Positions 47,737 through 54,414 of a DNA stretch of 64,000 nt are shown here, piece after piece; the stretch's first letter is position 1, and each line of letters begins with the position of its first letter. Location: NCBI GenBank assembly GCA_029936315.1, contig JAPYTD010000021.1, positions 1 through 64,000 of the forward strand. The letters run 5' to 3'. The position numbers and the translations under genes were made by a program. The notes beneath the pieces were generated by a model that was not told the origin of the DNA, did not search any database, and saw nothing but the letters and a program-made list of their open reading frames with translations. Source of the stretch: Planctomycetota bacterium (lineage in GTDB: Bacteria > Planctomycetota > UBA1135 > UBA2386).

Positions 47737-48381
47737 GTGATTGGCATTGCCTTGCTGTCTGGCGGCCTCGACTCCGGAGTTGCCACTGCGCGCTTTGTGG
47801 CAGATAAGGCGAACGAGTTGCGAGTCGCCTTGTATTGCGACTATGGCCATCGCGCTGCTGCTCGTGAACGGATCGCAGCGACCGCGCTTGCGAGTCGCTT
47901 TGCGGTGCCGCTCGTGACCTACGAATTGCCCTGGTTAGCGGATCTGTCGCGTACTGTCGGCTGTCGTTTGGTGGACGGGACCGGGGATCTGCCGGTCGCG
48001 ACCAATGAAGCACCCGGAGATCACGACAGTGCTGCTGCTGTTTGGGTGCCGGCGCGCAATGCTGTGTTCATCAGCATCGCCGCTGCAGTTGCCGAAGCGC
48101 ACGGTGCGGATTGCGTGGTCGCCGGCTTCAATCGCGAAGAGGCAGCGACCTTCCCAGACAACTCCCAGGCCTTCTTGTCGGCCGCGACGGCGTTCTTGCA
48201 GCTTGGCACCCGCGACGGCATGCAGGTCGTCAGCCCGACGATCGATTGCACGAAGCATGAGATCGTCGCCGACGCCAAGCGGCTGGGCTTCTCTGCGGGC
48301 GACTTCTGGTCGTGCTACGAAGGCGGATCTGCGCCATGTGGCCAATGCGAGTCGTGCGTTCGCAGCCGCTGGCAGCGATGA
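47737..48381 (+). CDS. queC: 7-cyano-7-deazaguanine synthase
   Basis: IALLSGGLDSGVATARFVADKANELRVALYCDYGHRA...VWVPARNAVFISIAAAVAE...SCYEGGSAPCGQCESCVRS; GTG start. Confidence 0.88.
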   Translation: MIGIALLSGGLDSGVATARFVADKANELRVALYCDYGHRAAARERIAATALASRFAVPLVTYELPWLADLSRTVGCRLVDGTGDLPVATNEAPGDHDSAAAVWVPARNAVFISIAAAVAEAHGADCVVAGFNREEAATFPDNSQAFLSAATAFLQLGTRDGMQVVSPTIDCTKHEIVADAKRLGFSAGDFWSCYEGGSAPCGQCESCVRSRWQR

Positions 48382-49205
48382 TTGCCTCACCCATGGCGCG
48401 CCCCGACATCTTTGGCATCGTCAACGTCACGATGGATTCCTTCAGCGATGGCGGTCGCTACTTGCATGCCGATAAGGCCGTAGCTCACGGCGAACAGTTG
48501 CGGCTGGCGGGCGCGAATGTCTTGGACCTAGGTGCCGAGTCGACCCATCCTGATGCCGAGCACGTCGCAGCCACAGAAGAGATCCGCCGGCTCGAACCGG
48601 TTGTGGGGGAGTTGCTCGAGCAGGGTGCGACGGTCAGCATCGATACAACCAAGGCCGAGGTCATGCAGGCGATGGTTGCGATCGGTGCGACGTGGCTCAA
48701 CGACGTCAATGGCTTTCGCGACCCAGCGGCGCTAGCGGTGGCCGGCAAGTGCGACGAGCACGTGCGGTTCGTCGTGATGTACTCGCGCAGCAACACTGCG
48801 CGCGCCGAGCGTGCCTCAAAGGCGAGTCGTGGCCTGCTGGCAGAACTGCGCGAGTTCTTTGTCGAACGTCGCGCCGCGTTCGCCGCGGTCGGAGTCGCTC
48901 CCGAGCGGCTCGTGTTCGACCCTGGCATGGGGTTCTTTCTGGGCAGCGAGGCTGGACCCAGCCTGACCGTTCTGCGTTGCTTGCGCGAACTGACCGAAGA
49001 CGCGGGACCCATGCTGATCTCCGTGTCGCGCAAGTCGTTCCTCGGCGAGGTGACCAAAAGCTCGGTGGCGCAGCGCGGGCCGGCGACCTTGGCAGCGGAG
49101 TTGTGGGCGGCGCAGCATGGCGCTGGATTCCTTCGAACCCACGATGTCAAGGCGCTGCACGATGCACTGAAGGTGCTGCAGGCCATCGCTTCAACACCCG
49201 GATAG
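48378..49205 (+). CDS. folP: Dihydropteroate synthase
   Basis: IFGIVNVTMDSFSDGGRY...VLDLGAESTHP...WLNDVNGFRDP...VFDPGMGFFLG...VSRKSFLG; ATGA overlap with queC. Confidence 0.92.
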   Translation: MIASPMARPDIFGIVNVTMDSFSDGGRYLHADKAVAHGEQLRLAGANVLDLGAESTHPDAEHVAATEEIRRLEPVVGELLEQGATVSIDTTKAEVMQAMVAIGATWLNDVNGFRDPAALAVAGKCDEHVRFVVMYSRSNTARAERASKASRGLLAELREFFVERRAAFAAVGVAPERLVFDPGMGFFLGSEAGPSLTVLRCLRELTEDAGPMLISVSRKSFLGEVTKSSVAQRGPATLAAELWAAQHGAGFLRTHDVKALHDALKVLQAIASTPG

Positions 49206-49348
49206 GGGGTGCTCGGGGAGCCCCAGAGGGGACCTCCCTGAACCAGTCCCGAAATGGGGCTGGCGGTCCAACCGCGTTCTCAAGTTCGGCCCTCAGAGGC
49301 TCGAAAAGGGCTTGTCGGTTGTCGCAATCCGCTGCCGACACGAGGCCA

Positions 49349-50134
49349 ATGGAATCTGTCAACGAGATCAAGAAAGCGCTATCTCTGCGTTCGCGTACTG
49401 CGACCCTAGACGAGTTGCGCGGTGAGGGACGCAAGCGCGTTCGCCTGATCCGCGCGGAACACGTCGCACAGATGATCAGCGAGGCAGTTCATGCCGCGGT
49501 CGAACACTCAGGCCTGATTCCTCCGGACGAAGTCGATCAGCTGGTCGAGAAGAGTCGCCGCGAGTTCAAGAACATCCTGAAGGAGCGCGAGCAGGACGCC
49601 AAGAGCGCCCGTGATATCGAGGAACAATTCGAGCAACGGGAACACGAACTCGGTGAGCTTCGCACGCGTTCGTCCGAGTTGGGCAAGGCGCTGACTACGA
49701 CACGCCTCGAACTTGAGCAAACGCAGAGTGAGTTGCAAGCCGTCCGCGAGACGCCTGCGCCCGCCGCGGCGCCAGCTCAGCCGGTAGCTTCCGACGAGAT
49801 CATGATGACGTTGGTGCAGGAGCTGGCGACGCTCAAGGCCAACATGGCGAACCAACAGCAGCAGCCGGCTCCGGCCGCGCCGGCGCCCGACTTCTCGGAA
49901 GCGCTCGAAAAGCTGACCGGTTCGCTCAACGACCGACTCGAGAAGATCGGCAAGAAGATGGGTGTCAGCGCGGCGGTCGAAGATGACTCGCCGGTTGACT
50001 TCGGCGGCATGTTCGACGACGAGTCCGGCAGCGAGCTTGAGTCGAACATGGACAACATCCAGGTCAAGCAGAAGGCTGTGGGAGGCATCGCAGCCAACTT
50101 GGCCAAGCTTAAGAAACTCAAGGGCGGCGGCTAA
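49349..50134 (+). CDS. Coiled-coil protein, unknown, upstream partner of actin-like gene
   Basis: MESVNEIKKALSLRSRTATLDELRGEGRKRVRLIRAEHVAQMI... long heptad region, PA-rich linker. Confidence 0.65.
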   Translation: MESVNEIKKALSLRSRTATLDELRGEGRKRVRLIRAEHVAQMISEAVHAAVEHSGLIPPDEVDQLVEKSRREFKNILKEREQDAKSARDIEEQFEQREHELGELRTRSSELGKALTTTRLELEQTQSELQAVRETPAPAAAPAQPVASDEIMMTLVQELATLKANMANQQQQPAPAAPAPDFSEALEKLTGSLNDRLEKIGKKMGVSAAVEDDSPVDFGGMFDDESGSELESNMDNIQVKQKAVGGIAANLAKLKKLKGGG

Positions 50135-50185
50135 TCACCGACCGACGAGACGAACTATTAACTGGGGAACCTAAGGGCGAGAGCA

Positions 50186-51229
50186 ATGACTGAGCAATAC
50201 GACAACAATCCAAACATTGATTCGACGACTGAGACCGCCGTTGGCCTTGGCAAGGGCCTCGACATCGGCACCGCCAACCTTGCTGCAGCCGTGCAGAACG
50301 GCGAGGGCGGCATCACAGTTAACGTGGAGCGCAACGCGTTCCTGGACATCCCGAGCGATGTTTACAGCAAGAACATGCTGACCAAGCTGAAGGTGCCGTA
50401 CGTGGTGCACAACGGCAAACTGGTCGTCATCGGCGAAGCTGCGTTCGATCTCGCCAACGTGTTCGCCCGCGAAACGCGTCGCCCGATGGCCGATGGCCTG
50501 GTCAGCCCGAATGAGCAGGATGCTTTGCCGATGATGAAGATGATCATCCAGAAGATCCTGGGTGAGCCGCAGGTGCCCGGCGAGAACTGCTACTTCTGCG
50601 TGCCCGCCGAGTCGCTCGACGTCGACAACAACATTGTCTACCACCAAGGCCTGTTCGAGAGCATGGTTTCGAAGCTCGGCTACACGGCGCACGCGATCAA
50701 CGAAGGCCACGCGGTTGTGTTCGCGGAACTCGCGGAGAACGACTTTACCGGTATCGGCCTGTCGTTCGGCGGTGGCATGGCGAACGCTTGCATCACCTAC
50801 AAGTCGATCCCATGCCTGTCGTTCTCGGTGGCAAGAGGTGGCGACTGGATCGACAAGAACGTCGCCAACGTGCTCGGTGTGCCCCACAACAAGGCGGCGC
50901 ACATCAAGGAACGCGGCATCGATATCCGCGACCCGAAGAGCCGCGAAGAAGAAGCCGTCTCGATCTACTACCGCAGCTTGATCAACTACGTGCTGTCGAA
51001 CATCAAGGCGCGCTTTGAGTCCGGCCAGAACATGCCGAGCTTCAACGAGCCGATCGACATCGCGTGCGCTGGCGGCACGTCATTGGTCGGTGGCTTCATC
51101 GAAGTCTTCCGCGAAGAGTTTGCCAAGATCGACTTCCCGCTGCCCGTTGGCCGCATCTTCCGCAGCGAAGAGGCTTTGTCGGCAGTTGCGAAGGGCTGCC
51201 TGGTGGCAGCTGCGATCGGCGAAGACTAG
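50186..51229 (+). CDS. Divergent actin/MreB/Hsp70-fold ATPase
   Basis: GKGLDIGTANLAAAV (phosphate 1), GIGLSFGGGMANACI (phosphate 2), IACAGGTSLVGGFIEVFREEF (adenosine), SAVAKGCLVAAAIGED (connect 2). Confidence 0.78.
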   Translation: MTEQYDNNPNIDSTTETAVGLGKGLDIGTANLAAAVQNGEGGITVNVERNAFLDIPSDVYSKNMLTKLKVPYVVHNGKLVVIGEAAFDLANVFARETRRPMADGLVSPNEQDALPMMKMIIQKILGEPQVPGENCYFCVPAESLDVDNNIVYHQGLFESMVSKLGYTAHAINEGHAVVFAELAENDFTGIGLSFGGGMANACITYKSIPCLSFSVARGGDWIDKNVANVLGVPHNKAAHIKERGIDIRDPKSREEEAVSIYYRSLINYVLSNIKARFESGQNMPSFNEPIDIACAGGTSLVGGFIEVFREEFAKIDFPLPVGRIFRSEEALSAVAKGCLVAAAIGED

Positions 51230-51257
51230 CGCGAGACGTCAGACGCAATCATGCGAG

Positions 51258-51295
51258 CGGGCGCGACCAAGGCCGGGCGGTCCTGGTCGCGCCCG
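51258..51295. terminator. Perfect 12-bp stem (CGGGCGCGACCA / TGGTCGCGCCCG) between convergent genes, probably bidirectional
   Basis: Arms 51258-51269 and 51284-51295, 14-nt loop. Confidence 0.75.
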
Positions 51296-51320
51296 GTTGC
51301 GTTTGTGGCGTATGTGCCAA

Positions 51321-54296
51321 TCACAGCGTCAGCGTCACCCTGACCCAGTTGCTGAGTTCGCGTTCGATAGGTAGGACCGGGGACAGCGAGAAACCTGCGA
51401 CGTAGAGCGGCAGTCCTGCGAGGAATGGCAGAAACGGCGCCACTAACGTCGGGGATGCGTTGGCGCCGGCATCGAGCGTGCCCGTGAAGTTGACGAAGAA
51501 CGGGCTGCCAGGCGTGATGCTGGCAGCGAGGATGGGGCCGTTGTTGAGCGGCAGCAGAGAGCCTAGTGGCAGCGTTGTACCGTTCTGGAAGCCTTCGCTC
51601 AGCGCCACGATGTAGGGGAATCCGGCTTCGCCCGGCAGGGTCAGTTCGAATGCGGTGGGTTGGCCGAGTGTCGCCGTCGGTGGGCCACGCAACGTCATCT
51701 CGTCCAGCAAGAACAGCAGGCACTGCTGCAACAACTGAGAGCGCGCGTCGTCGGACAGCATCGCATCGAGCGGCAGACCGAGCGTCACGACGCGGCTGCC
51801 GGTGGTTGGGTTGTGCATCTGAACGCCGGCACCGAGGCCGTTGCCGTAGCGCAGGCAGAGCTGGCCTAGGGCGTTGCTCGGGGTCAGCACATCGGCATAG
51901 TCGACGTTGTAGGTCGGCCCCGTTCCGTTATCGAACGTGGACGCGGGCACACCTTCACTGACCGTTCCGGCGAGTCCTGCCTGCAGCGCGTAGGTGTTGG
52001 CGTCGTCAGCGACGTAGGTCGCGCCGAGCACGCCGCGGAAGAACGCGCGATCCCCGGTCGAGCCTTGCGCGTCGAGATCCCAGCCAACTTCGGCGCCGGT
52101 CACGAGCAAACTGCCGCCGTTGCTCAGATACGTCGTTACCAGAGATTGCTCGATCGAGCCGAACGTTTCGTCGGCGGTGCTCTCCTCGCCTAGCGACCAG
52201 ACAACCGCATTGTAGTTGGCCATCGCGACACGGCCGAGCACAACGGCTTCGTTGCTGGCGGCATCAAAGCCGACTGAGAAGTTGGCGTTCCGGCGGATCG
52301 AGTCGCCGAAGCGATGCAGGTAGTCGCCGGTGTTCTCCGGACCCTTGACGTTGCGGCCGAGCCGGTCGAAACCCTGCACGAGCAGTGCCTGCGCGACCGC
52401 GAGATGGTCGGTGCCGGCGGTCAGCACCTCGGTGGGGAACGAACGTCCGGTGGCATTCCATGCCCGCACCCGAAACGACGCCCACGAGTGATGCGGCAGT
52501 GGTCCGGTCGACCAGTTGTTCGCCGCGACGTTGGCCACTTCGTGGAAGCCCTTGCCATCTTGTGATTGTTCGATCGTGTAATGGGTCGCGTTCGGGACGA
52601 GGTCCCACGCAACGCGCAAGCCGCGCGCGCCATCTTGCGTGACGCGCAACGCAGCCGGTGGTTCGGGCGCGAACGGCGCCAATGGCGCGAAGTAGCGCAG
52701 CACCCCGCGGGCATAGGCGCGCGCGACCAGGTAGCGAAACTCCGGGTCGTGCAGTGAGGTGTGGTCGAGCGAGCCCGGGGAGTCATGGAAAGCCAGTTCG
52801 ACCAGGATGCCGGGCATCGTGCTCAGCAATCGCAGTTCGCCGAAGTTCGCCTGGGACTGGCCGCGATCGGTCCAGCCGGCATGCCACTCGCTTTGCAGGT
52901 CGGCAATGATCTGTGTGTGCACGCGCTGGCTTAGCGTTGCCGAACCGGCTGTCGCGCCGCCGCTGTAGATGAAGGTTGATGTGCCGCTACCGCCACCGGC
53001 ATTGGTGTGCACCGATACAAACGCATCGGCAGAACGCCATTCGGCGAAGCGGGGGCGCGCAGTGACGTCATCACTGTTGTCTTGGCCCGTGGCTACAGAA
53101 TTGTAGACGCTGCTCGGCGCGCCGGCGAACTGCGACCAATACCGCGCACATTCGCGCCACCTCGCCTGGTTGCTGGTGGTGCCGCCACGCACGATCGACC
53201 CGACCCCGCCACCTAGCCGCATCGCATCGGCGATGACGACGCCCGGACTCGGGGAGAGGTTGCTCAAGTCGATGCGCGCACCGTCTGCCGCCGCAAACCA
53301 AAACGTGCCGAGGTGCGCCCATGTCAGGTTGTCGCGGGTCTGGTCGACGACGACGTTGGCAATGCCGCCAGCATGGTGCACCCGGTAGTTTGCTTCGGGC
53401 GTGCGGTTGCTGCTGGCGCGGAACCACGCGAACACCGGATAGAGCCCGTCCTCGGCAATCGGGATCTGCCAGGTGGCTGTGGCTGTTTCTGCCACAGAGT
53501 TGCTGCCGACGAATCGATACGTCGAGTTCTGGTAGCCCGACGAACCCGAAGTGGACCACGCACCTGTCTCAACATATGCCGGCGCTCCGACATCGTTGTC
53601 GACCAGCCCGTCGACGCTCTGCTCGCCTGGTTCACGGCAAAACACGATGTCGGCGCCCATGTTCTGCAAGAACGGGATCAGGTAGCGATTGCAGATCTCA
53701 GCGGTGTGGATGTCCTCGACCAGCCCGTCGATGACGCCGCGCTGTGTGGTCCAACCAAGCGAGCTGTGCCAGTAGTAGCCGTGGCCCGGTGAGACCGCGA
53801 TGCGCTTGCCGCTCAGCGTGCCGAACGGTGAGACCAGGCTGGCGGTTGGCGGTGGTGCGCCCGGCATGGCCGATACGTTCGATGCCTGGCCTAGCGCGGC
53901 GCCGAGTTCTTGCTGCGTGCCGTTTGCGAACTGCACGAGGATGACCACTCGATCGACCCCCGGTACCGACAAGGTTGTTTTGTCGATCTGCTCAATGCCG
54001 TCTTCGAGGTTGCCTTGGCCGCGCAGGATGTGGTCGGAGAAGACGATCGTTGCCGTTTGGCCGGTGATTGCGGCTTGCACGCAACGAGTGCCAGCAGGCA
54101 GATGGCTGACGAATCCAAGGCTCGTTTCGCTCGCGGATGGGCCCGCGCATAGATGGCGCATCGCGTCTGTCAACGATCGGTGGTGCGGCGCGACGCGCGC
54201 GAGGTTGGCGTTACGGAAGAAGAGTACCTCCTGACTCATCAGGCAAGCACTGGTCGCTGCAAGGGCGAGTAGTGGAGCAACAATGTTGGGGCGCAT
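51321..54296 (-). CDS. Secreted N-acetylmuramoyl-L-alanine amidase (amidase_3) with N-terminal GerMN-like domain, inserted golvesin-like domain, FN3 and C-terminal domain
   Basis: EVLFFRNANLARV...; KRIAVSPGHGYYWH...FVSVHTNAGGGSGTSTF...GILVELAFHDSP; ETGAWSTSGSSGYQNSTYRF insert. Confidence 0.82.
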   Translation of the reverse strand: MRPNIVAPLLALAATSACLMSQEVLFFRNANLARVAPHHRSLTDAMRHLCAGPSASETSLGFVSHLPAGTRCVQAAITGQTATIVFSDHILRGQGNLEDGIEQIDKTTLSVPGVDRVVILVQFANGTQQELGAALGQASNVSAMPGAPPPTASLVSPFGTLSGKRIAVSPGHGYYWHSSLGWTTQRGVIDGLVEDIHTAEICNRYLIPFLQNMGADIVFCREPGEQSVDGLVDNDVGAPAYVETGAWSTSGSSGYQNSTYRFVGSNSVAETATATWQIPIAEDGLYPVFAWFRASSNRTPEANYRVHHAGGIANVVVDQTRDNLTWAHLGTFWFAAADGARIDLSNLSPSPGVVIADAMRLGGGVGSIVRGGTTSNQARWRECARYWSQFAGAPSSVYNSVATGQDNSDDVTARPRFAEWRSADAFVSVHTNAGGGSGTSTFIYSGGATAGSATLSQRVHTQIIADLQSEWHAGWTDRGQSQANFGELRLLSTMPGILVELAFHDSPGSLDHTSLHDPEFRYLVARAYARGVLRYFAPLAPFAPEPPAALRVTQDGARGLRVAWDLVPNATHYTIEQSQDGKGFHEVANVAANNWSTGPLPHHSWASFRVRAWNATGRSFPTEVLTAGTDHLAVAQALLVQGFDRLGRNVKGPENTGDYLHRFGDSIRRNANFSVGFDAASNEAVVLGRVAMANYNAVVWSLGEESTADETFGSIEQSLVTTYLSNGGSLLVTGAEVGWDLDAQGSTGDRAFFRGVLGATYVADDANTYALQAGLAGTVSEGVPASTFDNGTGPTYNVDYADVLTPSNALGQLCLRYGNGLGAGVQMHNPTTGSRVVTLGLPLDAMLSDDARSQLLQQCLLFLLDEMTLRGPPTATLGQPTAFELTLPGEAGFPYIVALSEGFQNGTTLPLGSLLPLNNGPILAASITPGSPFFVNFTGTLDAGANASPTLVAPFLPFLAGLPLYVAGFSLSPVLPIERELSNWVRVTLTL

Positions 54297-54414
54297 GGAC
54301 TGCAACGATACCCAGTCGGTGCGTCTGCTGTCCCTAGACAGTTCGCTTGGGTCATTCGCGTCTCCGCACACTTCCGTTGCGGCGAACGATGCGATGGCGC
54401 GTAGACTCGGTGCG

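Follow-up and report, generated by a model that had tools for sequence, protein, structure and literature searches.

A volactin-family actin in Planctomycetota and its upstream coiled-coil partner with a conserved, putatively volactin-binding tail

Introduction

A stretch of 64,000 nucleotides from a 4.98-Mb Planctomycetota MAG (the window; contig JAPYTD010000021.1, positions 1 to 64,000) encodes, one after the other, a coiled-coil protein and a divergent actin-like protein. What kind of actin is this, and what might the protein encode before it do for it? The original prediction, made from the sequence of the window, saw in the two genes a candidate undescribed cytoskeletal pair. Here we examine both genes through profile searches, comparison of loci from bacteria, huge phages and haloarchaea, and structure prediction.

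Results

Layout of the locus

The two genes are framed by folP and a converging gene, with the following features in window coordinates:

48312–49205: folP, preceding the partner and volactin pair
49349–50134, + strand: volactin partner (putative adaptor) gene, 261 aa, coiled coil, both ends conserved
50186–51229, + strand: volactin gene, open frame of 347 aa; PF25216 E = 5.7e-82; 38–40% identity with haloarchaeal copies
51253–51300, no strand: inverted repeat 3' of volactin, 23-nt arms, 83% complementary
51321–54371, − strand: amidase/Golvesin-domain protein gene, converging on the pair from the far side

A coding gene does precede the actin-like gene, as predicted, but it does not begin at 49206, a position just past the folP stop; the conserved start codon is the ATG at 49349, the point at which close relatives start MESVNEIK. 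The downstream frame is open over its 347 codons and contains all three motifs first noticed in it (GLDIGTAN, LSFGGGMANA and AGGTSLVGG), and volactin is a single-copy gene in its own genome. Partner and volactin are both on the + strand with a spacing of 51 bp, no terminator-like site was seen between them, and the inverted repeat at 51253–51300 is a possible transcript end. We rejected folP and queC as members of the module, since they are retained in close relatives only (18 and 16 loci). The converging gene, which carries Golvesin_C and Amidase_3 domains, also faces the pair in 21 related loci.

The actin-like protein belongs to the volactin family

The 50186–51229 product scored 276 bits with PF25216 (Volactin), whose cut-off is 35 (E = 5.7e-82; model positions 3–321 of 321), and haloarchaeal plasmid volactins aligned to it at 38–40% identity across 93–94% of the query. 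Judged by sequence, it is a full-length bacterial volactin and not a separate family of its own. Its membership of the actin superfamily is far beyond chance: the predicted volactin structure matched MreB (Foldseek E = 7.5e-14), and the family profile, compared with solved structures, found MamK (E = 5e-10), MreB (8e-5), FtsA (0.003) and BeeR (0.006).

The prediction of an actin-like protein other than MreB, FtsA, ParM or DnaK is borne out. The MreB and FtsA models all scored below their cut-offs: 22.2 versus 27 (PF06723) and 15.7 versus 365.75 (TIGR00904) for MreB, and 14.8 versus 175.85 (TIGR01174) and 22.9 versus 31.8 (PF14450) for FtsA. The protein is not the MreB of its genome either (PF06723 E = 7e-5, versus 6e-130 for the genome's best match), and MamK identity was likewise rejected (NF040964, 13.8 bits versus a cut-off of 400). 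A search for a PHROGs phage-family assignment gave nothing convincing, and a defence-system reading was set aside, with weak coiled-coil-type matches only.

Novelty, as originally claimed, divides between the two genes. A match to a named family with established function would speak against it, and for the actin half this is largely what we found, because the protein belongs to Volactin, whose founder forms filaments: volactin of Haloferax volcanii makes dynamic filaments that span the cytoplasm, with tips touching the membrane, and has a role in cell shape (PMC10869688). What stands is the pair itself, as neither the pair with its tail (see below) nor the tail as a common feature was found in the open-access papers searched.

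Three residues of the nucleotide site are of particular interest:

50261–50263, + strand: Asp26, phosphate-1 residue; Asp in 105/106 cellular and 80/80 phage volactins
50702–50704, + strand: Glu173, aligned by motif to the MreB catalytic Glu; 100/108 cellular and 80/80 phage volactins
50762–50764, + strand: Ser193, phosphate-2 residue, Asp in MreB; 103/108 cellular and 79/80 phage volactins

The serine in place of aspartate at phosphate 2 is real and conserved family-wide, not a peculiarity of this protein; given its frequency in cellular and phage volactins, Ser193 is therefore, on the alignments, a hallmark of the whole family. Since Asp26 and Glu173 are kept, the nucleotide site arguably still works, with the catalytic role of Glu173 presumed by analogy with MreB.

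Volactin is an extra actin in Planctomycetota

Volactin scored above cut-off in 112 of 294 Planctomycetota genomes. PF06723 (MreB) did so in all 294, so volactin is an extra actin in this phylum, and we rejected the idea that it replaces MreB. Many named relatives encode volactins 85–93% identical to the 50186–51229 product, and two Omnitrophota-labelled MAGs each encode two volactins in tandem, with 52–54% identity to it; of 58 genomes sampled from the phylum to which genome G295 belongs, 2 were above the volactin cut-off.

Several families depart from the simple layout. Loci of family f78 (L084:4147–6123 and L090:4525–6792, both − strand) contain a tandem second volactin whose N-terminal extension weakly resembles a ParB HTH (E = 0.02–0.03, below cut-off), and in family f27 (L080–L083, L218–L221) volactin itself is extended at its N-terminus by an acidic stretch several hundred residues long. 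In family f29 (L092–L096, L118), the volactin-like genes are very divergent and lie after, or overlap with, the gene of a large protein, which in L092 combines an SLBB domain with a single hydrophobic segment. A PilT-type (T2SSE) ATPase is fused to a divergent volactin domain in one ORF in two loci (L087:1221–4199 and L086:3841–7314, both + strand), the former confirmed by Pfam and the latter read from the sequence; in the tree, these fused proteins are divergent members on long branches.

The upstream protein has two conserved ends

The partner protein is organized as follows:

49349–49603, + strand: conserved N-terminal region, about residues 1–85 (85–90 residues); own HMM; fold low-confidence
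49523–49750, + strand: coiled coil, residues 59–134; one long helix, pLDDT mostly above 90 (AlphaFold2)
49988–50131, + strand: conserved C-terminal tail, residues 214–261, putative volactin-binding element; tail HMM E = 1.1e-20
50066–50080, + strand: tail segment QVKQK, residues 240–244; strand predicted only with volactin in the chain (AlphaFold2)
50090–50122, + strand: tail helix IAANLAKLKKL, residues 248–258 (AlphaFold2); portion shared with phage tails

The helix at residues 59–134 bears out the long coiled coil that had been read, with a basic N-terminal stretch, in the upstream gene. No Pfam family matched the partner above cut-off, no transmembrane segment was predicted, and a Foldseek search returned one, meaningless, match. 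A ribbon-helix-helix fold was possible from the sequence, but it gave no Pfam match and is unsupported by the AlphaFold2 model, in which the N-terminal fold is of low confidence. An HMM of the N-terminal region matched 85 ORFs in the volactin loci examined, every one a partner gene. Between the conserved ends lie the coiled coil and a Pro/Ala-rich linker, variable in length among relatives. The tail comprises the last ~47 residues (about 45–48), with the consensus LESNxxxVxVK...GGIxxNLxRLKKLKGG, in which the Asn of LESN is invariant and a Leu in the last helix nearly so; the tail HMM found a single copy in the genome, that of the partner gene, with the match spanning 49988–50128.

The tail is linked to volactin across genomes

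Of 126 volactin loci, 93 encode a partner homologue immediately before volactin (HMM, E < 1e-3; some loci counted twice), as do almost all canonical loci whose flanking sequence is long enough; the two Omnitrophota-labelled loci have the partner downstream of the second volactin. The tail HMM matched 97 of 11,496 ORFs, all within volactin loci. Across the 294 Planctomycetota genomes, the tail occurred in 72, all of them volactin-positive (hypergeometric P = 6e-40, with genomes treated as independent and relatedness ignored), and 71 of the 84 tail matches lay ≤2.5 kb from volactin. The predicted synteny of the two genes thus extends far beyond close relatives, and a lack of conserved linkage, which would count against the pair, is clearly not what we see.

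Volactin genomes without a tail match (n = 40) comprised the divergent f29, the paralogue-only f66, most of f27 and others. No tail neighbour stands beside volactin in f27; genomes of this family encode, at another site, a partner that retains both conserved ends. Family f20 (L214–L217) encodes TPR proteins (open frames of 845–1,078 aa; TPR by Pfam) whose C-termini bear 2–4 copies of the tail helix (GGVNAALARLKGLQG and similar), making them candidates, by sequence, for further volactin binders.

Structure prediction suggests docking of the tail

Partner and volactin were modelled with AlphaFold2 as one artificial chain, reading through 49349–51226 with Gly in place of the two in-frame TAA stops that separate the coding regions; this is a modelling device, and no read-through is claimed. 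The alignment had 22 rows, with 21 loci whose two genes share a frame. In the presence of volactin, pLDDT rose from 46 to 75 for tail residues 231–240 and from 55 to 73 for residues 241–250. A strand at 240–244 was predicted with volactin and was absent from the partner-alone control on the same rows, the helix at 248–258 was predicted in both, and the linkers flanking the tail stayed low in the fused model (mostly pLDDT <50). The simplest reading of the model is that the tail docks on volactin, and we infer that the strand may pair with it.

Volactins and related tails in huge phages

A scan of IMG/VR for volactin relatives yielded at least 514 coding stretches; the best 80 of these (L133–L212) showed 38–46% identity, many on contigs of 100–530 kb. 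Two large records listed as uncultured phage, LR745208.1 (485 kb; L213) and LR756511.1 (595 kb), also encode volactin, and a terminase profile matched 8 of 10 phage records tested, some weakly. Phage volactins formed one deep, fully supported clade of 42 rows and two small clades in the tree. When the fused model was compared with viral structures in Foldseek, mainly Hsp70-type proteins came back, from a library without huge-phage volactins. Phage volactins are apparently undescribed in the open-access papers searched.

The gene upstream of phage volactin, or one further, often ends (M/L)FIPxxI...(V/L)DxAxxALKALRKxK. On phage loci, the bacterial tail HMM, which was trained without any phage sequence, gave 17 matches above 6 bits, 14 of them upstream and C-terminal (Fisher P = 2e-10). 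Of 338 upstream ORFs, 41 had the full phage motif, against none of 1,402 others, a count that is descriptive only, because the motif was written after seeing those sequences. Alignment of bacterial and phage tails with hhalign, using phage rows picked by eye for the motif, gave a probability of 94 (E = 1.1e-7), and bridge phage tails such as AESNIKVREEEVDKGDIDDGVEALRRLRRG also have the ESN part in common with the bacterial tail. The same tail ends proteins encoded beside volactin in the Omnitrophota-labelled MAGs and on huge-phage contigs. Many phage loci (L163, L168, L169, L170, L193, L204 and others) have a conserved gene between the tail gene and volactin; its product ends in a GTDNLLxxIADKHEEFVYLLKQR-like sequence, and the L176 copy matches Ferritin just below cut-off.

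Haloarchaeal neighbours

On Natrinema and Haloarcula plasmids, a DUF7139 protein is encoded upstream of volactin (E = 6e-48 and 1e-40); these membrane-protein genes (L120:3980–4903 and L121:3926–4834) are directly upstream. The proteins combine hydrophobic segments with a long acidic tail containing SSGVDQQVAGLKGLKGG and SNDVDDAVDGLRQLQGG. Among 2,000 shuffles each, 1 equalled the tail match for Natrinema and 33 for Haloarcula, the two sequences being related and hence not independent, and hhalign gave a probability of 48 to phage tails and 13 to bacterial tails. Presence of the tail in the haloarchaeal DUF7139 proteins is therefore suggestive only. We found no literature on DUF7139, and no text on HVO_2014 or HVO_2016, the haloarchaeal chromosomal neighbours.

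Discussion

We consider it likely that this locus encodes a volactin filament together with a dedicated adaptor, which would grip volactin by its C-terminal tail, be made multivalent by its coiled coil and link cargo through its N-terminal part. The coiled-coil protein had been proposed as a polymer partner or anchor, and on the strength of a linkage reaching far beyond close relatives this remains the best reading. By extension from the archaeal founder, the second gene product would bind ATP and polymerize into dynamic filaments. Because the last 45 residues of the partner recur beside volactin in bacteria and giant phages, the tail is probably the part that grips the filament, whether on its side or at its end; binding would probably involve the short beta strand QVKQK, joined by the short basic amphipathic helix IAANLAKLKKL. 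As a coiled coil, the adaptor would present several tails at once, and its N-terminal part and lineage-specific body would tie the filament to a cargo or anchor.

The tail would then be the constant, volactin-reading part, and the body could be exchanged: Planctomycetota would use a soluble coiled coil, huge phages other small proteins and haloarchaea possibly the DUF7139 membrane protein. In its most general form, the volactins of bacteria, huge phages and archaea would share a universal C-terminal strand-helix docking tail, carried on unrelated neighbours and recruiting the filament to different cargoes, with DUF7139 as the haloarchaeal anchor; this we advance tentatively, as an idea that could well prove too broad. 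Envelope anchoring and DNA are the main cargo candidates, and the family's neighbours point both ways.

One alternative is a cell-shape or envelope system whose filament is tied to membrane or wall machinery, as MreB is by RodZ or Haloferax volactin by its tips. The Haloferax cell-shape role (PMC10869688) and the membrane proteins upstream of other volactins (DUF7139; SLBB with a TM segment) are consistent with this, but no transmembrane segment is predicted in the present partner, and shape is already served because MreB is present in all 294 genomes. We regard such a system as possible, though on balance doubtful.

ParR is a small adaptor whose C-terminal tail holds the actin-like ParM filament. 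A ParMRC-like DNA segregation system, with the partner as a ParR-like adaptor tying DNA to the volactin filament by its tail, is invited by this likeness, as here too an adaptor with a C-terminal tail adjoins an actin-like gene; the haloarchaeal actin salactin also affects DNA partitioning (PMC10746226), and the f78 paralogue extension is weakly ParB-HTH-like. That match is below cut-off, however, no centromere-like direct repeats were found in 49100–49400 or 50120–50200, the partner shows no DNA-binding fold by Pfam or in the AlphaFold2 model, and the gene is chromosomal with ordinary neighbours. Together with its different actin family and the position of its partner upstream of the actin gene, these differences from ParM–ParR make segregation of this kind unlikely.

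It would be rather surprising if the tail instead served oligomerization of the partner, or some other marking, with the linkage to volactin reflecting co-expression. The tail helix does form without volactin in the model, and binding of the tail to volactin is itself a prediction; yet among the 294 genomes the tail never occurs without volactin, unlinked cases included, the strand and raised pLDDT appear only with volactin present, and TPR proteins repeat the tail helix in volactin genomes only. A part in a type IV pilus or secretion machine, in a PilM-like use of the actin fold, is brought to mind by the two divergent volactin-like proteins fused to a PilT-type ATPase but is highly improbable, as these fusions are limited to divergent long-branch members and no pilus genes lie beside the pair here.

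The preferred reading, a volactin filament with a tail-bearing adaptor, can be set against known systems. Volactin itself (VolA, HVO_2015, of H. volcanii; PF25216) is of the same Pfam family over nearly its full length, and the haloarchaeal plasmid copies, with which our identity comparison (38–40%) was made rather than with VolA, have the same phosphate-2 Ser. The planctomycete volactin, known here from sequence, differs from that of Haloferax in being bacterial, in coexisting with MreB and in having a soluble coiled-coil adaptor. Salactin of Halobacterium salinarum forms dynamic filaments growing from the poles, and the published tree puts it closest to MamK, which is also where the profile puts volactin, but it is described as functionally distinct from volactin (PMC10746226); we set it beside volactin by description only. 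MamK, the nearest solved relative by profile, and Mad28 work together with coiled-coil proteins in the magnetosome (PMC12748827), a likeness to the pair here, but the MamK model falls far below its cut-off, and Mad28 is compared by description only. BeeR (PDB 8r2n), a bacterial actin from Verrucomicrobiota whose function is unknown, shares the fold but is distant in sequence.

The family of the actin half is known; as far as the searchable literature goes, what appears to be new is the tail-bearing pair, the occurrence of volactin in phages and the sharing of the tail among them. Planctomycetota are a phylum with unusual cell biology, and a second actin is widespread among them beside MreB (112 of 294 genomes). 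Huge phages encode actin too; the filaments usually discussed for these phages are tubulins (PhuZ). Encoded beside volactin in both bacteria and huge phages, the conserved tail is a concrete candidate for the binding element; it yields a list of candidate volactin partners, including a haloarchaeal one, and a short peptide open to direct testing.
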